NCBI GenBank assembly: GCA_035516255.1
Contig: DATJAL010000002.1
Location: 248,001 to 312,000 of the forward strand
DNA: 64,000 nt
DNA from: Chitinivibrionales bacterium
Lineage (GTDB): Bacteria > Fibrobacterota > Chitinivibrionia > Chitinivibrionales > FEN-1185
Direction of reading: 5' to 3'
The notes under the pieces are model-generated. The model searched no databases and was not told the DNA's origin. It saw only the letters and a list, made by a program, of their open reading frames with translations. Made by a program: the position numbers and the translations under genes. Below are positions 7 to 16,298 of this stretch, piece after piece. Within the stretch, counting starts at the first letter, position 1, and every line of letters begins with the position of its first letter.

Positions 7-1776
7 TCAAGGTTGTCGTACACCCGCCGCCAGCCAAGCGCACAGCCCCGCCAGGAAAAAATGCCCGTCTGCAAACAGGTTGAAAAGCACCGACCTGCCT
101 ATCCGGTGCTCGCGGTTGAACCGCATGAAAACGTACAGATAGAGAAGCGGAATCATCTGGAGAAAAAATCCTACCGACACGTGCAGGCTTTTTGCCGGCC
201 CGACGAACAGGGGAGAAAGCGCGCACACGACGCCGGTGAGCAGGATCACCGCGAGAACGAGTTTTCTGGCCCCTTCCTCGCCGATGATGGTGACCAGCGT
301 TTCCCTGCCCATGATCCTGTCGCCTTCGATATCGCGCAAATCAAAGATCAAGGAGCGGAGAAACGCCAGGACGAAAATGAGTATGAAGCAGGGCATGGTG
401 ATCAGTGAGATGCGGCTCGCGCCGCCGGCGCCCGCCATGGGAACGAACGTGAGCACGATGCCCCAGGCCAGCGCAACGAACAGGTCGCGTGACATGGGCA
501 CGTCTTTGAGTTTGCCGTACCGGAGGAACTTTCGTAAAAATGCGGGAACGATGGTGATATGATACACCGATCCGGCAAACGTCGCGAATAGCATGAGATA
601 AAAAAGGACCCTGCTTTCAAGAAAACTTATTACCAGGATAAGCAGGATGCACACGGCCACCACCGCATACAGCGCGGGCTTGTGCGCGCTGTAGAAACGG
701 TACCTTCCCACGCCGAGGTGCTGGGTTGCTTCCATGCTCGTGAGGCTGTTCCACAGGTACATTGAAAGGAAATAAAGAAACGAAAGCGCGAAACCGGAAA
801 CCGTTTGAGGCAGTCCCTGGAGCACGCACGACGCGTAATAGACGAGCGCCGCTCCGGTCGCTACAAAAATATTGAGCGTGGAAAAAAGGTCGATGACGTG
901 CCGCAGCAGGTTTACCGGCGTGATTTTCCGAGTTTGGTCCATATACAAAAGATAATCCGTGATGCGTTTGATCATCCAGTTGGGCGTTGACGCGCCGGCC
1001 GTGATGCCCACGGTCTTGCAGTTGGCGATCTTGTCCCATTCGATTTCTTTTTCGGTCTCGATCCATTGCGTGGGCGTACCGGTTTCCGCCGCGATTTTTG
1101 CAAGACGCCTGGTGTTGGCGCTGTTTTTCCCGCCCACCACGAGCACGGCGTCGACCTTTTTCGCGAGCTCGCGCGTCTCTTCCTGACGCCGGTCGGTCGC
1201 CGAACAGGTGGTTTTTTTTATCACCACCTCGCCGCCCGCAAAGCGCTTGCGGATTGCGCCGGCGATTTCGTCAAAGGTGACGTTGTCGAAGGTGGTCTGC
1301 GAGACAAGGCAGATTTTTTTTAAACCGGGCAGCTTTTCCACATCGTCGGGTGAGCCGACGAGGTGGCCGGCATCGCCCGCGTATCCCTGTAGTCCCACCA
1401 CTTCGGCATGTCCCGCGTCTCCGGTGATGACGATGGCGTAGCCCTGCGCCCGGTATTTCTCAATGACGCGGTGCACGGTCTTGACTTTTGGGCATGTGCC
1501 GTCGATCACGTGGCCGCGCGGCTCCCACGAGCGCTGGACTTCGGGCGCCACGCCGTGCGCGCGGATGAGAATGGACGATCCCGCCGGCGGCGGGTTGCCA
1601 TCGTCAAGCGCGGTGATGCCGCGCTCCTTGAGCATCTGCACGGTCTGGTTGTTGTGGATGAGTGGTCCAAGGGTGTACACGCCGCCGCCGGATTTGGCCG
1701 CCTGCTCGAGCGCGATGTCGACCGCGCGCCGCACGCCCATGCAGAACCCCGCGGTGGTGGCAGTGATGATTCTCAT
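7..1776 (-). CDS. ispH: IspH-UbiA fusion: HMBPP reductase with C-terminal prenyltransferase-like membrane domain
   Basis: This 589-residue protein joins two enzymes. Residues 1-285 are a full IspH, the Fe-S enzyme that makes IPP/DMAPP at the end of the MEP pathway. The three cluster cysteines are present (C12 in GFCMGV, C95 in DGTCPKV, C191 in TTCSATDRRQ), as are H41, H74, the acid in GHAEV, GGKNSANT and AGASTPNW. Residues about 290-589 hold some eight hydrophobic segments and the second UbiA aspartate motif DLRDIEGDRIMGRETL (479-494). The first UbiA motif, usually NDxxDxxxD, is here WNSLTSMEA near N343 and lacks the aspartates. Known families give each half; that the halves act in sequence (prenyl-PP supply, then transfer in the membrane) is inference. 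No long polyprenyl synthase gene is nearby. The gene is complete, starts at ATG without a strong ribosome site, and is divergent from the ABC gene. Confidence 0.93.
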   Translation of the reverse strand: MRIITATTAGFCMGVRRAVDIALEQAAKSGGGVYTLGPLIHNNQTVQMLKERGITALDDGNPPPAGSSILIRAHGVAPEVQRSWEPRGHVIDGTCPKVKTVHRVIEKYRAQGYAIVITGDAGHAEVVGLQGYAGDAGHLVGSPDDVEKLPGLKKICLVSQTTFDNVTFDEIAGAIRKRFAGGEVVIKKTTCSATDRRQEETRELAKKVDAVLVVGGKNSANTRRLAKIAAETGTPTQWIETEKEIEWDKIANCKTVGITAGASTPNWMIKRITDYLLYMDQTRKITPVNLLRHVIDLFSTLNIFVATGAALVYYASCVLQGLPQTVSGFALSFLYFLSMYLWNSLTSMEATQHLGVGRYRFYSAHKPALYAVVAVCILLILVISFLESRVLFYLMLFATFAGSVYHITIVPAFLRKFLRYGKLKDVPMSRDLFVALAWGIVLTFVPMAGAGGASRISLITMPCFILIFVLAFLRSLIFDLRDIEGDRIMGRETLVTIIGEEGARKLVLAVILLTGVVCALSPLFVGPAKSLHVSVGFFLQMIPLLYLYVFMRFNREHRIGRSVLFNLFADGHFFLAGLCAWLAAGVRQP

Positions 1777-2994: not shown

Positions 2995-3663
2995 ATGAAA
3001 GACACCCTCACCATCATTAAAAAGGAATGGCGCAGCTTCTTCGGAAGCGAAAAGGGCGTTTTTGCCGTGCACGGCATTCTGATTTTTGTTTGGAGTTTTA
3101 TCCCGCTGAGCAGCGGTTCGGGATCCGTTCTGTCCGGAAACCCGCTCTGGTGGCTTTTCTTTTCGGTCATCGTGAGCGGCAGCTTCGCCAATTCAGTGTT
3201 CGTGGCTGAACGCCTGAGCGGTTCCATGGAAATTCTTCTGACCAGCGGATTCCCGCGCAACAGCGTCCTGTTGGGGAAGACCGGTTTTGTCATTCTCATG
3301 GCCGTCGTCATCGGCGGGCTGAGCTTCGCGCTGTCGTTTTTATGGGCGAGCCTCATTTCCAAACAGTGTCTTTTTCAAACAGATTCCCTGCTGTTCGGGG
3401 CGCTGCTTTACTGCGCGGGCACGTTCATGAACGCGGCCGCCGGCGCGTGGATGTCCATACGCCTGTCGAGCCCGCGCCTGCTGCCCTTTGTCAACTTACT
3501 GTTCGTCGGCCTCGTGTGCGGGATCTATTACGCGCTCCGCTACGCGGCCGGCGTGCCCGGATGGCCGCTGTTTCTTTTTCTCGCCGCCGCCGGGATTGCG
3601 TTTCTTTTACTTGCCAAAAAGGACTTCAACGGTGAAAAAATCATTGCTCCGCTTGACCTGTAG
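2995..3663 (+). CDS. ABC-2-type transporter permease
   Basis: A 222-residue membrane protein with about six hydrophobic segments. It opens with the short amphipathic stretch MKDTLTIIKKEWRSFF that is typical of ABC-2 permeases. The segment VAERLSGSMEILLTSGFPR between early helices matches the cytoplasmic 'E...GTLE.L...P' region of that family (known family feature, matched by eye). It follows the ABC ATPase on the same strand and probably forms the exporter with it. Its 3' end overlaps the start of the apbE gene by 32 bases, which suggests translational coupling and a shared role with the flavin transferase. Confidence 0.82.
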   Translation: MKDTLTIIKKEWRSFFGSEKGVFAVHGILIFVWSFIPLSSGSGSVLSGNPLWWLFFSVIVSGSFANSVFVAERLSGSMEILLTSGFPRNSVLLGKTGFVILMAVVIGGLSFALSFLWASLISKQCLFQTDSLLFGALLYCAGTFMNAAAGAWMSIRLSSPRLLPFVNLLFVGLVCGIYYALRYAAGVPGWPLFLFLAAAGIAFLLLAKKDFNGEKIIAPLDL

Positions 3664-4660
3664 CGCCGCCGTGCTTTTCGGCATCGGCGCGGCGCTCGCC
3701 GGCTGCGCCAGGGTGGAAAAGCACGCCCGGCATTTTTTCGGCCTCGACACGGGCATCGACGTCACGGTGTATTCGGCGTCCTCGCGGGCCGAGGCCGACA
3801 TCGATTCGTTCGAGGCGCTCACGGGACGGCTCGAGGACATGCTTTCCATTTCCAAGCAGTCAAGCGTGATATGGCGAATCAACCACCGGCCGGATTCCCT
3901 GGCGTCCGTTTCAGCCGCATTTTCCCCGATCATTGCCGCATGCAGAAAAGAATATGCGTTGTCCGGCGGGCTGTTCGACGTCACCGTGGAGCCGTTCAAG
4001 ACCCTTTACGGATTGGAATCGCACCAGAGGGAAAACCACGTTCCGTCGCAGGCTGAAATCGACAGCGTGCTCGCGCTCACCGGGTTCGGCCGCGTCCGGT
4101 TTGTTTCGGACAGCGTTTTGGTTTTACCGCGCGGCATGCACTTTGACTTCGGCGGCATCGCAAAGGGGTTTGTGCTGCGGGAAGCCACGAAGTTCTTCAG
4201 CGAAAGGGGGCACGCGAGCTTTCTGGTGAACCTCGGGGGCGACCTTGTAGCATACGGCACCAAGCCGTCGAACGAGCCGTGGGTGATCGGCATACAGGAT
4301 CCGCGCGATTCGGTTAATCTGATCGCCACGCTGTCGTTTACCGGCGGCTGCGTGTTCACCAGCGGCGATTATGAGCGGTGTTTCATTGTCAACGGCAAAC
4401 GGTACCACCACCTCTTCGATCCGAAAACGGGCAAGCCGGGCTCCCTCAACATGAGCGCGACCGTGACGGGACGCGACCCGCTGGCGGTCGACGCGGCCAT
4501 TAAGACCGCGTTCCTGATGCCCGCGGAAAAGGCGCTTGAATATCTTTCGACAAGGAACATGTTGGGATTTCTCATTGACAGCACGAAAACGGGGTGGGCG
4601 AGCGCGGGGCTGAAGCAGTCCTTGACGCCCAATCCTGGTTTTGTGGTGAATTACCGATAG
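3632..4660 (+). CDS. apbE: FAD:protein FMN transferase (ApbE), lipoprotein
   Basis: ApbE moves FMN from FAD onto a threonine of target proteins outside the cytoplasm. The start is GTG at 3632, preceded by an AAGGA site; the longer open frame upstream belongs to the overlapping permease. This gives 342 residues beginning with a lipoprotein signal ending in ALAGC. Family motifs visible are DFGGIAKGFVLRE, FLVNLGGDLVAYG, FTSGDYER, and the HHLFDPKTGKPG histidine-loop followed by AVDAAIKTAFL near the C-terminus. No FMN-binding target gene with a clear SGAT motif is intact in the window. Together with the NusG_II and Gx genes, which converge on it from the other strand, it suggests a flavin-dependent redox system at the inner membrane (inference). 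Confidence 0.93.
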   Translation: MKKSLLRLTCSAAVLFGIGAALAGCARVEKHARHFFGLDTGIDVTVYSASSRAEADIDSFEALTGRLEDMLSISKQSSVIWRINHRPDSLASVSAAFSPIIAACRKEYALSGGLFDVTVEPFKTLYGLESHQRENHVPSQAEIDSVLALTGFGRVRFVSDSVLVLPRGMHFDFGGIAKGFVLREATKFFSERGHASFLVNLGGDLVAYGTKPSNEPWVIGIQDPRDSVNLIATLSFTGGCVFTSGDYERCFIVNGKRYHHLFDPKTGKPGSLNMSATVTGRDPLAVDAAIKTAFLMPAEKALEYLSTRNMLGFLIDSTKTGWASAGLKQSLTPNPGFVVNYR

Positions 4661-4707: not shown

Positions 4708-5877
4708 TTATTTTATCACTCTTAAAATAACAAGCTTATAAAGCCCTGTAACCAAAGCAGTTATCCAGTTAGTCTCAATTGATCCTTCAAGGCTGTTTTT
4801 CAAAATTTTTTCCTCTTTTCGCCCAAAAATTACAGCAATTTTATTTTTTATAAACCTCTTCCCATCTTCCGCGATCCCGGGAAAATATTCCAGCGCAAGC
4901 ACACCTGCGAAAATTGTTTCATCATGCCGCTTGAATATTGCCCGTAAAGTCTGCAGCATCACCGCATGAAAGTTGAAATACGAAAGAATGCTGGAAACCT
5001 GGAGCCAAGTCCAGAGCCGCAGCCATTGCTTGAGCGTCGCGTCGACACCCTCGTGCGTGACAAATGGGATAATTTCAATCCGCGTGCCGTAGGAAAAGAA
5101 CAGATCGACGCAGGCGATAAAAACGAAAAGCACCCAGAAACCGGACATTGGCTTGAAGAATGCTTTGATTGATCCTTTGAGTTGAATCTGAACGATCAAC
5201 GATGCGGCAACGGCGCATGCGCACAGCGCTTCATAAGAATCTGAGAAGACGATCGCAATGCAGGAGCACAAAAGTATCCATGAAAAGAAATGATTGGATG
5301 ATGAAGCTCTGATCGCCGGAAGATGGAAATTGTTTTGCGAATCCATAGAGATCATTCCGGGTCCAACCACTTTGTAAACCAGCGGCGCGAGCAGCCCCAC
5401 GATACCGCCGAAAATGACGGATGCAATGAGCATCACCGGGATCTGGTAAAACAGGTGCAGGTTGGCAGCCATGAGCGCGTACACCGCGCACAGTTGTCCG
5501 GCATTGTGGAACGCTGCGCCGATGGTGCCGAGGCCGATGGTCCCGAGAAGCTTGTTTTTTCCGAGCAGGCTCCAGAAGATTCCCATGGTAATGGTCGAGA
5601 GAACGCCGCCGCTCATCGCCAGGGATATGGTGAGAAATGAAAAACCGAAATAAAATCCCACGATCCACGTGCGCAACAGGGAAAACAGCACAGCATCAAC
5701 CGCGCCGTATTCGATGATCCAGAGAATGGTGATGATGTTCGCGAGCCCGGGCTTGAGCCAGGGGAAAAAGGGGAGGCGCGGGATGAAAAATTCAAGTGCG
5801 TTCAGGGCCACGGCGCACAAGAGCCACACCGTTTTTCTCACCGCCTGCTGCTGCGCCGCGTCATTGAGTGATTGCAT
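4708..5877 (-). CDS. Gx transporter (Hpre_diP_synt_I) fused to EcfT-like domain
   Basis: A membrane protein of 389 residues. The N-terminal 200 residues carry five to six helices and match the Gx transporter family (once called heptaprenyl diphosphate synthase component I), for example FFPWLKPGLANIITI and LLGTIGLGTIGAAFHNAGQL. After a short hydrophilic link, the C-terminal 185 residues have further helices and a cytoplasmic segment LALEYFPGIAEDGKRFI that resembles the coupling region of CbiQ/EcfT proteins. The start ATG at 5877 overlaps the NusG_II gene by 17 bases and has a GGGAAAGG site; a longer frame to 5949 runs inside that gene. In Gram-positive flavin-based electron-transfer loci, Gx-type and EcfT-type genes are separate neighbours, so a fusion here is notable. 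The EcfT assignment is by motif only. Confidence 0.75.
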   Translation of the reverse strand: MQSLNDAAQQQAVRKTVWLLCAVALNALEFFIPRLPFFPWLKPGLANIITILWIIEYGAVDAVLFSLLRTWIVGFYFGFSFLTISLAMSGGVLSTITMGIFWSLLGKNKLLGTIGLGTIGAAFHNAGQLCAVYALMAANLHLFYQIPVMLIASVIFGGIVGLLAPLVYKVVGPGMISMDSQNNFHLPAIRASSSNHFFSWILLCSCIAIVFSDSYEALCACAVAASLIVQIQLKGSIKAFFKPMSGFWVLFVFIACVDLFFSYGTRIEIIPFVTHEGVDATLKQWLRLWTWLQVSSILSYFNFHAVMLQTLRAIFKRHDETIFAGVLALEYFPGIAEDGKRFIKNKIAVIFGRKEEKILKNSLEGSIETNWITALVTGLYKLVILRVIK

Positions 5878-6238
5878 CGATGCCTTTCCCGGACGAAGCT
5901 TCAAGTTCGATGAGGATATGGTTCGGCGCGCACACGATCTGCTGGCCAACGCGCCGTATCGCGCCCGCGTGCACGCAGATCTGCTTGGGACAATCCGCCC
6001 ACGCTACGCGCACGCTGTTGTCGCGGATGGAAAGGGACAGGTCGCCGATTTTTCCCTTCAGGGTGATTTCCTTTGGGGAAGAAAGGGCGTATTGGGCGAT
6101 TTTCTTGTTTTCGCGGTAAACCACGACGGTGGCGGGCGCGTGGGATTGCATGAGGGGTAAAAAGAGAAGAGCCCCGGCAAGACATGATGCGATGATGACA
6201 AAATCAAGGAAGGTGAATGATTTCAACTTGTGAGGCAT
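5861..6238 (-). CDS. NusG domain II-containing membrane-anchored protein
   Basis: A 125-residue protein with one N-terminal membrane anchor (about residues 12-32) and a small extracytoplasmic beta domain. The latter half, with RVAWADCPKQICVHAG and the following QQIVCAPNHILIEL, is the hallmark of NusG_II proteins: a CPxxxC pair and a CxPN motif. Family members sit beside Gx transporter and ApbE genes and resemble EetA of flavin-based electron transfer (recalled knowledge). The start ATG at 6238 is chosen over the upstream frame because the anchor begins there. The gene overlaps the Gx-EcfT gene by 17 bases and lies 44 bases after the 613-residue unknown gene. Confidence 0.85.
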   Translation of the reverse strand: MPHKLKSFTFLDFVIIASCLAGALLFLPLMQSHAPATVVVYRENKKIAQYALSSPKEITLKGKIGDLSLSIRDNSVRVAWADCPKQICVHAGAIRRVGQQIVCAPNHILIELEASSGKGIDAITQ

Positions 6239-6282
6239 GATGTATCGGTTGTAAAGATAGTTGATGGATCCATCAGGGATGA

Positions 6283-8124
6283 CTATTCTCCAATGAACCT
6301 CGCCGCCCAGCTCCGCACGGTTTTCCCATTGAGCACATGAAAGGTGCGCAGCTTCCGTATCGTTTCCATACTGAACGCCGAAAGCGGTATCCATACGAAT
6401 CGTTTCTTGAATTTCTTGGCCAGCCCGGTAAGCCGCACACCCGGTTTTTTCGCCGCGACGTAGGGAATAATCTTTTCCCGTGAAAACAACAATGCGCCGT
6501 ACGCGAGATATTCGGAAAGGCTTTTGAGCTCCGGCGCGTCGCTGAGCGCGAACACGTTGGGAATCAGGCGCGGCGGAAACAGCAGGGAGAGTCCGCCGTA
6601 TCTCGAGCGTGCGATGCCCGGGCCGATCAGGTCGGCGTACGGGTCGGTGGCGTAGAACGTGAGGGTGGATTCCTGGTCATGCTCGGCGTACCACGTTGCG
6701 CAGTGCGGGTAGTTGTCGTCGTGCCCCTCGTCGAAGATGATCACCACCATGTCGGTTTTTCCCTGCGAGGGCGGGATTTCCCGCACGTAAATGTCGGCGT
6801 TGAACCAGTTGCGCATGGTTTCGCGGATGTCGATGCCGTCCTTCACCGACACGGTGAATTTCTCCGTGAGCGACCGGTCCTCGCACACCACGGCCCCGGC
6901 CTTTTTGCGCACGTGCGCGTTGAACCCCTCGATGCGCCGGTCCTCGGGCACGTGCGAGCACACGGAGCCGGGCCGCCACGAAAAACGGTATTTCTTTTTT
7001 GCCAATTGCGAGGGGTCGGGCTTGATGGAAAGCGTCCGCCAGTACACCCGCACGTCGCGGAACATGTTGATTGCCGGCCTCGCGCCGGCATCCCCGGGCA
7101 GCTCCACTTTGTCAATTCCAACGGAGAGCAGCGGTTTGTCAAGTTCAAAGGGCAGATACGGATAATATTTGGCGCTTTTAAGGATGTGGAGCGCATAGGC
7201 GTTGCCGCCGACGCCCTTGGCGGCCGCCACGATGTCGAACAGCGTCGGCATGAATCGGCGCTCGCTCACCGTGAGGTTGCGCAGAAACGTGAGGCCGGCC
7301 TGGATCCGGGCCGGGGAAAGAAAGGCCGCGTCCTCGCTCGCGTCGGAATATTCGTCGCGTGTCTCGATGAAAAGGCTCTTCACGGTGTCGGCCGGGTTGA
7401 CGCGCCGCGAAAACGGCTCATACCGTTCGCGCTCGAACTTGCCGGCGACGTACGGCAGTTCGCCGAGCGCGAAGTAGAGGTGGTCGGGGTTGACGAATTC
7501 CCTGGTGATGGCGTACGAAGGCGTCTTTGCAAAGGAGAGGTTGTAGGTTTTCTCCTTTTTAAAATGGCGCACCACCGCGCTATAACGGTTCATGTGGACC
7601 AGCGCGAGAATGTTGCGATAATCGCAGCGCAACTGATGAAGCCTGAACGCGGTGAACTGGGCGCCGGTTTCCTGGTCATGGAAATGCTCGGATCCACTGG
7701 CGCCGATTTCGGGATGGCCCGACGCGATCACACGCAGGCACAGCGACGCATAAGCGTCAAAGCCGAGCTGCGCCACGGCATAATCGTCTGGAAGCGGCGG
7801 GAGCGGCGCAGGGGCACTTAGCTCAGCATGGCCGATGCAGAAGCACCGGACATGGTTCTGCCCGCTCTGGCGCATCGCCTCAATGGACGCATCGCAGGGA
7901 TCCGCAGGCGCGTAATACACCGTTCCGTCCGCACCCCGCGCGATCACGGCGGAGATGTGCGGCAGATCGTGGATGGCGTCGAGCAGATGCTCCTCGAAGC
8001 ATTCCGGAATGTCAACGGCGATGCAGTCGAATTTTTCCTGAAGGCACAGGTCGCGTATGTGCTGGGCAAAGGTGAGTTTTCCGTGGATATAGGGGACGAG
8101 GGTGATGGAATCCGCCAGCTTCAT
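6283..8124 (-). CDS. Unknown protein in MoxR operon, TraB/DUF5682-like N-terminus
   Basis: I do not recognise this protein with certainty. It has 613 residues from ATG 8124; a TTG at 8136 overlapping the previous stop is the alternative start. There is no signal peptide or membrane segment, so it is probably cytoplasmic. The first 100 residues (VPYIHGKLTFAQHIRD, then FDCIAVDIPECFEEH, then VYYAPADPCDASIEAMR) follow the layout of TraB/PrgY/DUF5682 proteins, which often accompany MoxR ATPases; that match is by eye and weak. The last 200 residues include MVVIIFDEGHDDNYPHCATWY, rich in acids and histidines that could bind metal, but no known catalytic motif. It follows the MoxR gene by 8 bases, so the two are co-expressed and probably act together. 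Confidence 0.6.
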   Translation of the reverse strand: MKLADSITLVPYIHGKLTFAQHIRDLCLQEKFDCIAVDIPECFEEHLLDAIHDLPHISAVIARGADGTVYYAPADPCDASIEAMRQSGQNHVRCFCIGHAELSAPAPLPPLPDDYAVAQLGFDAYASLCLRVIASGHPEIGASGSEHFHDQETGAQFTAFRLHQLRCDYRNILALVHMNRYSAVVRHFKKEKTYNLSFAKTPSYAITREFVNPDHLYFALGELPYVAGKFERERYEPFSRRVNPADTVKSLFIETRDEYSDASEDAAFLSPARIQAGLTFLRNLTVSERRFMPTLFDIVAAAKGVGGNAYALHILKSAKYYPYLPFELDKPLLSVGIDKVELPGDAGARPAINMFRDVRVYWRTLSIKPDPSQLAKKKYRFSWRPGSVCSHVPEDRRIEGFNAHVRKKAGAVVCEDRSLTEKFTVSVKDGIDIRETMRNWFNADIYVREIPPSQGKTDMVVIIFDEGHDDNYPHCATWYAEHDQESTLTFYATDPYADLIGPGIARSRYGGLSLLFPPRLIPNVFALSDAPELKSLSEYLAYGALLFSREKIIPYVAAKKPGVRLTGLAKKFKKRFVWIPLSAFSMETIRKLRTFHVLNGKTVRSWAARFIGE

Positions 8125-8132
8125 AGCCAGCC

Positions 8133-9059
8133 TCAATGGTCCTTGGCGTCGGGATTGAGGTCCTCGTCGTCAGGAAAGAAATAATCGCCGAGGCTCATAT
8201 CGGGCAAATGTTCGCCCGACAGTTTGCGTTTCGCGGCAAGCGCCTCAAGGTCGAGCGCCTCATCGCCGAGAATCTGCCTGACGGAATCCGCAAACAGGTC
8301 CTTTACATTCGCGCCTGAGCCGTTTTTCCGCTTTTTGAGGGTGTAGCGGATGGCGTTGATGCCGTCGCGCACCGAGTAGGGAAGGTCGAGGCCGTGCGCC
8401 TGCTGCAGATAGTCGACGCACATGTCAAGTATTTCCTCGGGGCAGAACGGCAGGTTGTACGAGAGGATCTTCAGCTCGTCTTCGCGGCTCGGAAAGCAGA
8501 TTTCGATGCCGGGCTGGAGCCGCGACATGATGTAGTCCGGGATTTCGTACGTGGAGGAATCGTCGTTCATGGTGACGACCGCCCTGAATTCCGGGTGCGC
8601 CTTCACCACGATGCCCGCCACCACGGACTCGGCCATTCTCCTGTTGTCAAAAAGGCCGGCAAGCGATGCCCACGATTTCTCCGACATCCGGTTTCCCTCG
8701 TCGAGCACCGCGATGCCGCCCTCGATCGCCGCGGACAAAAGCGGGCTCGCATGGTAGGCTATTTTTCCCTTCTCGGAAAGCACCGGCGTGATGAGCAGGT
8801 CCTCGGGCCTGGTGTCCGACGTGCACTGCAACACATAGACGCTTTGCCCGCGCTTCTGCGCCGCCGTGATGCCGAGCGTGGTTTTGCCGATGCCCGGCAC
8901 GCCGATGAGCCTCGGCGTGAGCGGCAGGTCGTCTTTCGCGACCGTGATCCAGCACGCGAGGAGCTGGCGCAGCGGCTCCTGCTGGCCGATCCACTCGGCC
9001 TTCACGTCCACGGGGTGGGAGAGGACGACTTCTACATTGTCAATGATCGTTGTTTTCAT
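8133..9059 (-). CDS. MoxR-type AAA+ ATPase
   Basis: A 308-residue AAA+ ATPase. Visible parts are Walker A GVPGIGKTT (53-61), Walker B GIAVLDEGNRM with D120-E121, sensor-1 VVTMNDD (N165) and the arginine-finger region YIMSRLQPGIEI (R180), then the alpha lid. Family knowledge: MoxR ATPases act as chaperones that remodel or load cofactors into partner proteins, usually together with a VWA-domain protein. No VWA gene is seen here; the partner is probably the 613-residue protein just downstream. The ATG at 9059 begins the conserved part and lies 4 bases after the CsgG-like gene; the longer frame to 9107 overlaps that gene and is unlikely. Confidence 0.87.
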   Translation of the reverse strand: MKTTIIDNVEVVLSHPVDVKAEWIGQQEPLRQLLACWITVAKDDLPLTPRLIGVPGIGKTTLGITAAQKRGQSVYVLQCTSDTRPEDLLITPVLSEKGKIAYHASPLLSAAIEGGIAVLDEGNRMSEKSWASLAGLFDNRRMAESVVAGIVVKAHPEFRAVVTMNDDSSTYEIPDYIMSRLQPGIEICFPSREDELKILSYNLPFCPEEILDMCVDYLQQAHGLDLPYSVRDGINAIRYTLKKRKNGSGANVKDLFADSVRQILGDEALDLEALAAKRKLSGEHLPDMSLGDYFFPDDEDLNPDAKDH

Positions 9060-9063
9060 CGCG

Positions 9064-10074
9064 CTATTTCTTGCCGTTGATGCGGTCGAGGTCGCCCGAT
9101 TTCTCAAGTTGTTTGCCGAGCAGTTTGCCCGTCTCCTCGCACGCGTTAATGAAGGGCTTCACGTCCTTCCAGTGCCGCTCGCCGATCCCGTCGATGGTCA
9201 CCGTGAGGCTGGGCGCTGCGGCGGAGGGCGTCTCGAAGAACGAGAAGGTCATGCGCATCATGCCTTCTTTCTGGCCGAACCTGGCCGGCCTGGTGGAATA
9301 TGATTCGAGCTGCGGCCTGATGACATACGCCTTGCACTGCTGCGCTCTGTCGAGCGCGCCGCGGGACGCGGTGTCGACGCCGGGCTTGATATAATCGGAA
9401 AGCTTGTCGGCGAGCTTTTCGTACGCCTCGCGCCAGTCCCGCTCCTCCAGGTCAAAGCCGATAATGCCTTTTTCAAACGGCGCCATTTCGATGTAGGCGC
9501 GCTTGTCGCATGATGGCTCGCTTGACGGCTGATCCCTGCTTGGCGTTTCCTTGCGGCCTTCTTTGCGCTCCGAGGCCTGCGGGGCGGATTTGGGCGGCGG
9601 CTCCTGTCTGCAAAGTTCCTGCGCAAGCTTCGGGAGGCGCCCGACCATGTCTTCAAGGTCTCCCTTGACATCATCGGAAACGGTCCTCGAGATTTTTGCG
9701 GTCTTTATGTCGATGAGGCGCAGGTTGAGCATGAACATGGAGCCAACTTTACCGAGGGAGCCCGACACGAGCTTCTGCACGCCGAGGATCTGCCCCATCT
9801 CGATGAGGCATGATTCGTTGGTGCACGCGCCGGTCTGCTGGAACCCCTGTTCCTTGAGGATCTCCGACATCTGCTCGCGCTCCATTACGTCAACCATTCC
9901 GGTCTTGAAGAACTCCACGCGCAGCCGGTCGGAAATCAGCTCGGCCTCGTCCTTGGTGACGCCGGCGCCGCCCTTGAGCGTCATGATGGCGACGGTCTCT
10001 TTTTTCTGCTGAGCAAAGCCGCAGAGCACGGCAAGACAGATCATGAGAATCGAGGTGGTGATTTTAGATTTCAT
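9064..10074 (-). CDS. Secreted CsgG/LpoB-like protein
   Basis: A 336-residue exported protein with a signal peptide (residues 1-20, ending CGFAQQ). Residues 25-150 match the CsgG/LpoB/DUF2380-type nucleoside-fold domain: VAIMTLKGGAGVTKDEAELISD, then VDVMEREQMSEILKEQGF, a CTNESCLIEMGQILGV segment and VSGSLGKVGSMFMLNLRLID. Such domains in periplasmic proteins assemble rings or activate enzymes of the envelope. After a charged, proline-rich linker (175-210), the C-terminal 130 residues are not recognised. It heads the minus-strand run that includes the MoxR gene (4-base gap). The start is ATG 10074, where the signal peptide begins. Confidence 0.8.
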   Translation of the reverse strand: MKSKITTSILMICLAVLCGFAQQKKETVAIMTLKGGAGVTKDEAELISDRLRVEFFKTGMVDVMEREQMSEILKEQGFQQTGACTNESCLIEMGQILGVQKLVSGSLGKVGSMFMLNLRLIDIKTAKISRTVSDDVKGDLEDMVGRLPKLAQELCRQEPPPKSAPQASERKEGRKETPSRDQPSSEPSCDKRAYIEMAPFEKGIIGFDLEERDWREAYEKLADKLSDYIKPGVDTASRGALDRAQQCKAYVIRPQLESYSTRPARFGQKEGMMRMTFSFFETPSAAAPSLTVTIDGIGERHWKDVKPFINACEETGKLLGKQLEKSGDLDRINGKK

Positions 10075-12605: not shown

Positions 12606-14708
12606 ATGACCATTGAAACGCAAAAGAATTTCCTTGGAAAAACGCAGACCATACTCATGGCCGAGATCGAGTCAGAGCGATGGAGCTCGTGGATCAGGCT
12701 TGGTATAGCGGTGGGATATTCGCTCCTTGCTTTTTACAGTTATTCGGTTGATGATATTTCGGTGCGGGCGTTTGCGCTGCAGATGGGCGCCGTGCTCACC
12801 ATGCTTGCCTACAGCGGTTATTATCTGACACGCTACAGCACCACCCGCGCGCGGACCTATTCGTCTTTCATTCTCGTCATACTCGACGTGCTCGTCATCA
12901 CCACAGTGCTGGTCTCGTATTCACTCATGGGCGCGCCGTCTGCGCTGCTCTGCGGTTCGCTCTTCAGCGTCTATTTTATCGCGATCATCTTTACGGCGCT
13001 GCACAACAAGCTCTCCCTCTCCATTTTCAGCGGTGTGTTTTCTGCCGTGTGCTATAGCGCATATTATCTATATATATTCCTGTTTAAGGGCGGGCCGACG
13101 GACACCTGGATTTCGGATTTTTCCATCCGGGTGGTACTGCTGCTGATCGTCGCTGCCATCGCGGGCATCATCTCCCGCAAGAATTACGCCACCATCAACA
13201 AGGTCATCAGCTCGGAACAGCGTTATCAGAACCTCGTGCACCGCCTGCCCGAAATGCTTTTCACGCTTGACGAGCGCGGAAAATTCCTGTGGTCGAACAA
13301 CACGTCGTTCGCCCTGCTCGGCCTGCCCGCCAAGGTGCTGCCCGGCAGGAACATCAAGGATTTTCTGGCGCAGCCCGGGCAGCTCAAAATTGACAAAGCT
13401 GAATTCAAGGGCACCATTCAGATCAAGGACCTCAACGGGCGCACCAAATATGTCGACTGCACGCTGCAGCCGACCTCCGAGGTGGAAAAACCGCTCATCT
13501 ACGAAGGCATCATGACCGATGTGAGCGACCGCGAGCTCGCGCTGTCCCAACGCGAGGAAATGGTGACGCGGCTGCACCAGTACCAGAAGATGGAATCGCT
13601 GGGCACGCTGGCGAGCGGCATGGCGCACGATTTCAACAACATCCTCCAGACCGTGGACGATATCACCGTTCAGGTGCAGAAAGACACGGCTGAGCCGGAA
13701 ACAAAAAAACGCATGGAGGTCGTCTCCGAGACGCTGGTGGAGGCAAAGCTCCTGATTTCCGAGTTGCTCGCGCTCGGCCGAAACAAGCTGCTCGACTACA
13801 AGAACATCCATCTTCAGGGTTTTTTCGAGGACATTATACCGCTGTACGGAAGCCAGCTGGGATCCAAGTTCCAGGTGGTGTTCAAGGCGCCCGACGAACC
13901 GCTCTGGATCCAGGGCGACGATGATTATTTCAAGCGGGTGTTCCAGAACCTCATCGGCAACTCGCGCGATGCGATGGAAAACGGCGGCACCATCACCATC
14001 GAATGTTTCGCCGACCGCAGGCACGGGGAGAAGACCGGCACCGTGGTGATCCGGTTCACCGATACGGGCACGGGCATTCCGCACGAAGTACTCGACAAGA
14101 TTTTCGACCCGTTCTTCACCACGAAGAAGAAGGGCAAGGGCACGGGCCTGGGACTCGCGCTTGTCCAGAGGATCGTGTCGCTGCACAACGGCCGCGTCTT
14201 CGTGGAACGCACCGACAAGCGGGGCACCACCTTCCGCATCGAGATACCGGAAAGCGAGGGCGGCGAGGTGGAGCACGACACCACCATGATCATGCTCAAC
14301 CGCACGCCGTCTATGGTGCTGCTCCTCGACGACGACCCCAAGATCAGGGCGATCCTGCGTTTCTTCATGAACGAATTCAAGTATGCGGTGTGCGAGGCGT
14401 CCACGGTGGAGGAGGGCGCGCGGGAGCTCAACAAACATCTTGCTGAATGCGAAGTGCTTATCATGGACTGGAAACTCGGCAGGGACGATCCGCACGCTGC
14501 CATCGCGAGGCTCCGCGCCATCAAGCCGTCGCTCATTGTGATCGTGGTGTCGGGATATCCGCCGGAGCAAAAAAGCGTGGAGGACATGAAAATCTGGAAA
14601 TGGTTCACCAAGCCCTACGACAAGAACCAGCTCGACCTCGAAATCCAGAAGGCGCTTTTTTACGCGAAAAAGGGATCGAAGAAAGCGGGGAAGCAGGGGA
14701 ACGGCTAG
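12606..14708 (+). CDS. Membrane hybrid histidine kinase (6 TM - PAS - HisKA - HATPase - REC)
   Basis: A 700-residue sensor kinase. Six hydrophobic segments fill residues 20-195, followed by a PAS domain (about 210-310; PEMLFTLDERGKFLWSN), a HisKA domain with the phospho-acceptor in GMAHDFNNIL (H341), an HATPase domain with NLIGNSRDAM and DTGTGIP, and a C-terminal receiver domain with acidic pocket LLDDDPK, phospho-acceptor D621 in IMDWKLG and lysine in TKPYDK. Signal and output are unknown. The start is ATG 12606 behind a GGAAGG site; GTG at 12594 is possible. No partner regulator is adjacent; the REC-HD-GYP gene 3 kb downstream is a candidate by distance only. Confidence 0.92.
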   Translation: MTIETQKNFLGKTQTILMAEIESERWSSWIRLGIAVGYSLLAFYSYSVDDISVRAFALQMGAVLTMLAYSGYYLTRYSTTRARTYSSFILVILDVLVITTVLVSYSLMGAPSALLCGSLFSVYFIAIIFTALHNKLSLSIFSGVFSAVCYSAYYLYIFLFKGGPTDTWISDFSIRVVLLLIVAAIAGIISRKNYATINKVISSEQRYQNLVHRLPEMLFTLDERGKFLWSNNTSFALLGLPAKVLPGRNIKDFLAQPGQLKIDKAEFKGTIQIKDLNGRTKYVDCTLQPTSEVEKPLIYEGIMTDVSDRELALSQREEMVTRLHQYQKMESLGTLASGMAHDFNNILQTVDDITVQVQKDTAEPETKKRMEVVSETLVEAKLLISELLALGRNKLLDYKNIHLQGFFEDIIPLYGSQLGSKFQVVFKAPDEPLWIQGDDDYFKRVFQNLIGNSRDAMENGGTITIECFADRRHGEKTGTVVIRFTDTGTGIPHEVLDKIFDPFFTTKKKGKGTGLGLALVQRIVSLHNGRVFVERTDKRGTTFRIEIPESEGGEVEHDTTMIMLNRTPSMVLLLDDDPKIRAILRFFMNEFKYAVCEASTVEEGARELNKHLAECEVLIMDWKLGRDDPHAAIARLRAIKPSLIVIVVSGYPPEQKSVEDMKIWKWFTKPYDKNQLDLEIQKALFYAKKGSKKAGKQGNG

Positions 14709-16147
14709 GCGACCTGGTTGTCCTTCCGGTACCTTAGCGGCGTGGTCCGGCAGATCCTGGAGAAATATTTTTCCATTTCACCCACGTTTTTGAACCCGCA
14801 CGACTCAGCGATCGAGGCGACGCTTGAATGAGAGGAGCGCAACCGCTCCTTTGCGATTTCGATGCGCTGCGCCATGATGTAATCGCGGAAATTCTTCCCG
14901 CCGCATTTCTTCAACACCGCGCTTATCCTGCCCTGGGTAAGCCCGAGTTTTTCCGCAGCCCAGTCCAGCGAGAGCTCCTTAAAGGTGATGGCTTCATCGA
15001 TGAATTGACAAACTTGGTCCGACAGTTTCTTTTCCTCTTCGGTCTGCTCGAACTGATCGAACGACATCGTCCGTTTCCTGATGAAGAAAAATACGCCTCC
15101 TCCAAGCAGCGCGAGGAGAAGGCCCGCGACGAAGCTCATGAACCATTGCATCCATCCCGAGGAGAAAAACGGTTTTGGCAGCAGGGTCACCGTGCCCCAG
15201 GTATACGGGCTGAGCTGGTCCGATTCCGGAGATTCGGTCCAGGAAATACTCGTTATTTGGCCGTTTTCGCCGGGCAGCCGCACGACCACATTGCACCCGA
15301 ACGAGTCGGGGAGCGTTGCACCGAAAAGCGCGGCGGGCACCGTGACGTCGATGGTGAAACCTTTGCCGTCCTCCTTATGGACTTCGTTGGCGCATGCGTA
15401 TGGTTCCCGTTCGGTTGCGATGCTGAAGGATCCGTCTTCTGAAAAAACGGGCTTGTAAAGAATGCGGAACGGAGGGCCGTCGAGTGGCACCGCAAAGCTG
15501 AAGGCCTGCTGCGGCGGATACGGTTTACGAGAAAGAGACGGGTCGATGCAAACCTCGACCCCCATGGCGGCGAGCTTGTCCTTTGACGCGCCGCTGAAAT
15601 TGAACGCAGCTTGGGCTTTGGTTAAAATGGTGATACCGCCTTTATTCCAGCATGCCGCGACATGTGCGGCGCCAGGCGCGCGGCCCGCTGCAACGTTTTT
15701 GGCGAAAAGCAAGGAACCTTCTCCTTTTGCAAACGGAATTGCCGCGGCAAAAAAGGGAACCGGTTTGTTGGCGATGAACACTCCTCCCTGCTTAAACGAA
15801 ACGCGCTGGCCGTTTGTAAAGGACGCCTCGGCGATAAGGGTCATGCCTTTGTAAAGCTGGTTGGGCACCGAGCCGGCGTTCCAGACAAATGAGAAGAGAG
15901 GGCGCTTGACGCGGCCGAGCGCGACCAAGGTGTCACGGTTTTGCCCCGCCAAGGAATAGCGGGCGGAAAAAGTGATTGAACCGACCTGGTCGCATGCCTT
16001 CACCGCCACCGTGCAAAGAGGCGCGGACACGACCGCCCCGCTTCGCGGCGATTCAAAGCTGATGCATGACGCGGCCGCTCCGGCCCTGACGGTGATACCC
16101 ATGCCCGCGGCGAGCACAAGAAAAAGAGGCACAAAATAACGTTTCAT
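14705..16147 (-). CDS. Transmembrane AraC-family regulator with periplasmic CBM9-like sensor
   Basis: A 480-residue one-component regulator. It has a signal peptide (1-24), an Ig-like stretch (25-120), then a region (about 125-335) that looks like a CBM9-type carbohydrate-binding domain, with KGFTIDVTVPAALFG and SPYTWGTVTLLPKPF near its end. A single membrane helix (about 345-368) leads to a C-terminal AraC DNA-binding domain (395-478) with KNFRDYIMAQRIEIAKERL and SVASIAESCGFKNVGEMEKYF. Such a layout implies sensing a sugar-like ligand outside and binding DNA from the membrane (inference). The start is ATG 16147; the frame further upstream reads through the tRNA gene and is not coding. It meets the kinase gene tail-to-tail with a 4-base overlap. 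Confidence 0.82.
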   Translation of the reverse strand: MKRYFVPLFLVLAAGMGITVRAGAAASCISFESPRSGAVVSAPLCTVAVKACDQVGSITFSARYSLAGQNRDTLVALGRVKRPLFSFVWNAGSVPNQLYKGMTLIAEASFTNGQRVSFKQGGVFIANKPVPFFAAAIPFAKGEGSLLFAKNVAAGRAPGAAHVAACWNKGGITILTKAQAAFNFSGASKDKLAAMGVEVCIDPSLSRKPYPPQQAFSFAVPLDGPPFRILYKPVFSEDGSFSIATEREPYACANEVHKEDGKGFTIDVTVPAALFGATLPDSFGCNVVVRLPGENGQITSISWTESPESDQLSPYTWGTVTLLPKPFFSSGWMQWFMSFVAGLLLALLGGGVFFFIRKRTMSFDQFEQTEEEKKLSDQVCQFIDEAITFKELSLDWAAEKLGLTQGRISAVLKKCGGKNFRDYIMAQRIEIAKERLRSSHSSVASIAESCGFKNVGEMEKYFSRICRTTPLRYRKDNQVA

Positions 16148-16214
16148 AAGGCTCTGACGACATCTGCCAAAGCGGAAACTGGCAGGAACAGGCGTTTCGT
16201 GCGTTGAAGGGAAA

Positions 16215-16288
16215 TGGGCGCACCTGGATTCGAACCAGGGGTCTCTGCGATGTGAACGCAGCGCTTTAACCAGCTGAGCCATACGCCC
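16215..16288 (-). tRNA. tRNA-Val (anticodon CAC)
   Basis: A 74-base cloverleaf on the minus strand. The acceptor stem GGGCGTA pairs with TGCGCCC with A as discriminator, the anticodon stem CTGCG/CGCAG encloses loop TTCACAT (anticodon CAC), and the T-arm is CCTGG-TTCGAAT-CCAGG. No CCA is encoded. It reads GUG codons as valine. Confidence 0.95.
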
Positions 16289-16298
16289 ATGAACAATA

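Follow-up and report, generated by a model that had tools for sequence, protein, structure and literature searches.

What does a MoxR-type ATPase serve when its gene is followed by that of an unassigned 613-residue protein and then by genes of a flavin/redox module? The question is raised by a minus-strand locus in a 64,000-nucleotide stretch of DNA from a Chitinivibrionales bacterium (contig DATJAL010000002.1, positions 248,001 to 312,000), the whole of which is referred to here as the window. Five genes follow one another in the order CsgG-like, MoxR, 613-residue protein, NusG_II, and Gx; the first four are separated by 4, 8, and 44 bases, and the last two overlap by 17 bases. An initial annotation of the window had described exactly this layout, which was reproduced when we re-read the sequence, and had proposed that the ATPase and its partner might serve the redox module. 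The partnership stands; the service to the redox module is mostly not supported, as loci of other phyla carry the pair without that module alongside.

The MoxR protein and the 613-residue protein (hereafter the partner) are an obligate pair, present in at least six bacterial phyla. Both genes were found in 32 of the 61 Fibrobacterota genomes and neither in 28, the partner gene never occurring alone and the MoxR gene doing so once. MoxR is thus present in 32/32 genomes with the partner gene versus 1/29 without it (Fisher p = 1.5e-16, uncorrected for phylogeny). In the one Fibrobacterota genome where the MoxR gene (G036:C16:4489-5415) was detected without the partner gene, an assembly gap is a possible cause. 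Phylum names outside Fibrobacterota are those given in the record titles of the homologues and of a plasmid. Relatives of the partner at about 35-45% identity occur in Nitrospirota, Nitrospinota, Latescibacterota, and Planctomycetota, and profile searches recovered the protein in 14/118 genomes of the Nitrospirota sample, 23/149 of the Planctomycetota sample, and 20/64 of the Latescibacterota sample. A diverged pair, in which a relative at 28% identity adjoins an AAA ATPase gene, is carried by the 231-kb plasmid pS13 of Neochlamydia sp. S13 (L128). All nine Planctomycetota genomes checked have this MoxR (E 1e-79 to 1e-153), in eight of the nine at a place apart from the partner gene, and in one of the nine with the MoxR gene split over two contigs. 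Since the two genes are co-inherited even after such separation, we regard their products as partners. Where the genes do adjoin, as is usual in the other phyla too, they are tightly coupled, the gap being mostly -4 to +15 bases. Outside Fibrobacterota the pair is the sole conserved unit, and no third gene common to the phyla was seen in the neighbourhoods compared.

We further analyzed the identity of the partner, for which nothing scored above threshold in Pfam, NCBIfam, or PADLOC. When a profile of 58 relatives was compared by hhalign with a set of DUF5682 proteins, E. coli YehM among them, the match reached an E-value of 8.6e-10 over about 290 columns, and the N-terminal half alone gave 2.1e-10, each being the E-value of a single pairwise comparison. 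The controls, i.e., reversed profiles, twenty unrelated families, and TraB, all gave p >= 0.03. The N-terminal half is homologous to DUF5682; the C-terminal half gave p 0.21 in the same comparison. By Pfam, DUF5682 was reached weakly by two of the 58 members (best 0.0033), and in the protein's own genome there was no match to it at E <= 10; the Pfam cut-off, 26 bits over the full length of the family, is thus not attained. Because this cut-off is not reached and the C-terminal half is unrelated, the partner is classed from its sequence as a relative of DUF5682/YehM and not as a member of the family. A VWA domain in the C-terminal half was considered and rejected, as comparison with a VWA/YehP set gave hhalign p 0.15-0.27 and Pfam VWA matched 0/58 members. 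A strong DUF5682-to-VWA profile match proved to be due to one fused DUF5682-VWA protein and was not used as evidence. One Planctomycetota protein of about 1270 residues (L240, G268:C148) carries DUF5682 and a YehP-like VWA domain in a single frame. A sequence-profile search of the PDB with the partner returned only a spike-glycoprotein match at E ~0.7, which we attribute to chance.

On the ATPase side, the motifs are intact: Walker A (GVPGIGKTT) and Walker B (LDEGN) are invariant in the cross-phylum alignment A2, and the C-terminal tail is conserved (GDYFFPDDEDLNPD). The AAA_3 score of 31.9 bits lies above the Pfam cut-off of 27, so that the AAA_3/AAA_5 domain and the Walker motifs of a MoxR protein are all present. 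The solved structures nearest to it are Midasin, CbbQ, and NorQ.

The structure model of the partner has a mean predicted local distance difference test (pLDDT) score of 89.9. Foldseek searches of the PDB with a shallow and a deeper model found no match at E <= 0.001, the best being 0.06-0.13 with low template-modelling (TM) score. In a viral predicted-structure library the top match was a TraB family protein (E 2e-3, a weak match), which weakly suggests that the N-terminal half has a TraB-like fold. Within the model, residues 421-440 combine a mean column identity of 0.82-0.85 with pLDDT values of 54-57, the lowest anywhere; the only other block that is equally conserved, residues 591-600, is confidently modelled. 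Because the stretch is conserved yet unmodelled, it is a candidate docking loop. The model suggests that this loop, at about residues 421-443, may be ordered only within a complex.

How do these two proteins compare with characterized MoxR systems? In E. coli, the YehM gene lies between those of YehL (MoxR) and YehP (VWA), and Planctomycetota DUF5682 genes stand in similar clusters; in most cases seen, the E. coli and Planctomycetota DUF5682 genes adjoin a YehL-type MoxR gene. The window pair resembles YehL-YehM-YehP-YehQ (MoxR, DUF5682, VWA, SWIM) in that a MoxR gene is followed by a DUF5682-type gene and the N-terminal halves of the partners are homologous. It differs in that its MoxR belongs to another branch, its partner has an unrelated C-terminal half and is shorter (613 residues versus about 760 for YehM), and neither a VWA (YehP) nor a SWIM gene adjoins it. 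Like NorQ-NorD, CbbQ-CbbO, and RavA-ViaA, it joins a MoxR-type ATPase to a dedicated partner, and the profile of its ATPase matches the NorQ and CbbQ structures, but the VWA domain with its metal-ion-dependent adhesion site, which marks those partners, is not detectable here. In NorQ-NorD, a finger of NorD enters the pore of the NorQ ring, and McrB-McrC does likewise without a VWA domain (PMC13036017). By analogy, the pair may share with McrB-McrC an AAA+ ring and a non-VWA partner that docks a finger in the pore; unlike McrB-McrC, its ATPase is of MoxR type and no nuclease domain was found. No relation to McrB-McrC in sequence was seen, though no search was aimed at it. Our literature searches found nothing on MoxR together with DUF5682, and, judged by titles and abstracts, none of the papers listed for the yeh genes deals with YehM itself.

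Taken with the obligate co-occurrence of the two genes, we consider it rather likely that the MoxR protein and the partner are two parts of one VWA-free AAA+ machine, in which the partner would be a diverged YehM/DUF5682 relative that docks by its loop. The wider proposal, that this is a widespread and undescribed class of two-protein MoxR machine without VWA, where a protein related to YehM stands in for the VWA partner and docks by its highly conserved loop, seems to us evenly balanced. In such a machine MoxR would assemble into a ring, and the partner would dock the loop at about residues 421-443 into or onto that ring, as NorD and McrC do with NorQ and McrB. ATP hydrolysis would then shift the partner, whose YehM/TraB-like N-terminal domain may bind or remodel a target. 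Several points weigh against this reading. The mechanism is drawn from analogy, since no solved structure resembles the partner and its C-terminal half has no homologue; the low pLDDT of the loop may also reflect poor modelling; and the window MoxR shares only 21% identity with YehL (E 0.27). As MoxR is not close to YehL, the window pair and YehL-YehM are therefore not simply one operon inherited whole. In addition, the strong retention of the flavin-export genes downstream of the pair within the order, described below, would be compatible with a functional link specific to this lineage.

That retention bears on the alternative put forward at the outset, in which the flavin/redox module, comprising flavinylated proteins and the export of flavin adenine dinucleotide (FAD) by EetA-EetB, would depend on the MoxR pair for its maturation, by cofactor insertion or complex assembly. 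We take the NusG_II protein to be EetA. Its gene is coupled to a PF07456 gene, as in EetA-EetB of Listeria extracellular electron transfer, and the 17-base overlap of the two is kept in nearly all relatives. Across the order, the NusG_II and Gx genes lie downstream of the pair in 22 of the 26 loci where enough sequence follows to judge; one of these 22 lies on a contig that stops after NusG_II. Together with MoxR/partner adjacency in several phyla, this means that the layout is not due to chance. In keeping with the redox alternative, the presence of pair and Gx is also correlated across Fibrobacterota: 27 genomes have both and 21 neither, against 5 with the pair only and 8 with Gx only (p 8e-6, again uncorrected for phylogeny). 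Other MoxR pairs, such as NorQD, do serve respiratory enzymes (PMC13036017).

The wider distribution argues against it. No EetAB gene stood beside the pair in the 46 loci from other phyla (a few of these contigs end soon after it), and a NusG_II gene was absent from six of the seven non-Fibrobacterota pair genomes tested, being present in the Latescibacterota one. Even within Fibrobacterota, the 5 and 8 genomes above make 13 that hold one without the other. EetB has been defined as PF07456, in a study whose main text does not use the name NusG; in Listeria, FAD export requires this FAD-binding protein together with energy-coupling factor (ECF) subunits, ECF-T fusions of EetB have been described, and the export is described with no MoxR (PMC9973259). 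The EcfT label that the initial annotation gave to the end of the Gx protein was not borne out, since Pfam ECF-T matched the C-terminal half in 0/13 orthologues. Our literature searches on NusG_II together with flavinylation likewise found nothing. Judged by sequence, the NusG_II and Gx genes appear to correspond to eetA and eetB, a predicted flavin-export unit separate from the pair, linked to it in this one bacterial order and sharing its neighbourhood there only.

A further gene separates the two units in relatives. The usual layout in the order is DUF2225 and/or CsgG, MoxR, partner, c2, NusG_II, and Gx, where c2 encodes a secreted-looking protein of about 250-315 residues with invariant cysteines, found between the partner gene and NusG_II in most relatives (L036-L063) and matching no Pfam family. 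The partner gene lies near c2, and the spacer from c2 to NusG_II is often 100-500 bases; this intervening gene and spacer also count against a single redox unit. There is no c2 in the window, where the interval at 6238-6283 spans 44 bases. Because a relative of the same genus (G001) retains c2, the short gap is best explained by a deletion that removed c2 and joined the two units. No sigma-70-like promoter sites were found in the gap, but the scan yields no more sites than in shuffled sequence and so carries little weight. The initial annotation had named independent gene order in relatives among the observations that would speak against one transcription unit. Such independence is seen in part: the NusG_II-Gx link to the pair is real within the order and is not general. 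Gene-neighbourhood comparison, which it had also proposed, thus upheld the MoxR/partner unit across phyla and confined the EetAB neighbours to the order. Maturation of the redox module is therefore unlikely, in our judgement, as the general function, and the pair probably works as a machine in its own right, with EetAB as only occasional neighbours.

A second alternative concerns the N-terminal half of the partner, which might be an active TraB/Tiki-like hydrolase or metalloprotease fed or regulated by MoxR, making the pair an ATP-driven enzyme and not a chaperone. The best predicted-structure match is to the TraB family, as noted above, and the residues H14-G15 (in Fibrobacterota and most others), R24, and D75-P76-C77 are conserved. 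Outside Fibrobacterota, however, the alignment shows no conservation of the histidine that follows the strand ILALVH, and TraB (PF01963) was rejected as a sequence relative of the partner when the profile comparison was not significant, so that we consider an enzyme of this kind quite unlikely. That the two proteins form an NTPase system of stress or defence type, akin to the MoxR conflict systems (eLife 2020), and not a maturation chaperone is very unlikely, for although the patchy spread of the pair over phyla, the Neochlamydia plasmid copy, and the occurrence of MoxR and VWA proteins in conflict systems (PMC7159879) point that way, no PADLOC model matches, no conserved nuclease, toxin, or other effector gene was seen alongside, and the locus is stable within the order, unlike defence islands.

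The features of the locus are collected in Table 1, and some observations on its surroundings are added here. Upstream of MoxR, a DUF2225 gene is found in most relatives (e.g., L047:3285-4295) and a CsgG-like gene in some; the window has the CsgG-like gene there instead of DUF2225. On the other side, a gene for ApbE (FAD:protein flavin mononucleotide transferase; 3488-4660, plus strand) faces the Gx gene; in none of the relatives examined was an ApbE gene seen in that position. At 7-1776 (minus strand), a single frame encodes a fusion in which an N-terminal part resembling IspH (LytB) precedes a UbiA-like prenyltransferase part, both named by eye; the length of this fusion, about 590-620 residues, recurs in relatives beside the same ATP-binding cassette (ABC) genes. 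The frame at 14705-16282 (minus strand) ends in an AraC-like region, also by eye, and since its listed start overlaps a tRNA-Val gene (16214-16289, minus strand), the actual start of the frame probably lies farther downstream.

Table 1. Features of the MoxR locus in the window (positions count from the first letter of the window).
Feature	Position	Strand	Evidence
CsgG-like secreted protein, gene upstream of MoxR	9064-10074	-	Pfam CsgG 2e-6; neighbourhoods of relatives
MoxR-type AAA+ ATPase, 308 residues	8133-9059	-	Pfam AAA_5 2.1e-17, AAA_3 1e-7
613-residue partner protein	6283-8124	-	Outside every curated family threshold
Partner, N-terminal half, residues 1-310	7195-8124	-	Remote DUF5682/YehM homologue by hhalign
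Partner, C-terminal half, residues 311-613	6286-7194	-	Homology not detectable, VWA included
Partner, candidate docking/finger loop, residues 421-443, EKFTVSVKDGIDIRETMRNWFNA	6796-6864	-	Suggested by high conservation with low pLDDT
EetA-like NusG_II protein	5861-6238	-	Pfam NusG_II 1.4e-24
EetB-like Gx protein (PF07456), extra hydrophobic C-terminal half	4708-5877	-	Pfam Hpre_diP_synt_I 1.2e-25

These results correct an assignment made by association: the flavin-export neighbours are conserved in one order and are not the general target of the pair. MoxR ATPases are usually explained via VWA partners, and a co-inherited pair that is free of VWA would widen their known uses. The pair is a clean two-component system for biochemistry, with a partner that no family library names. 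If the proposed machine is correct, the partner would define a class of MoxR partner that is new, and would offer a way to approach what YehLM, which are uncharacterized, do in E. coli.

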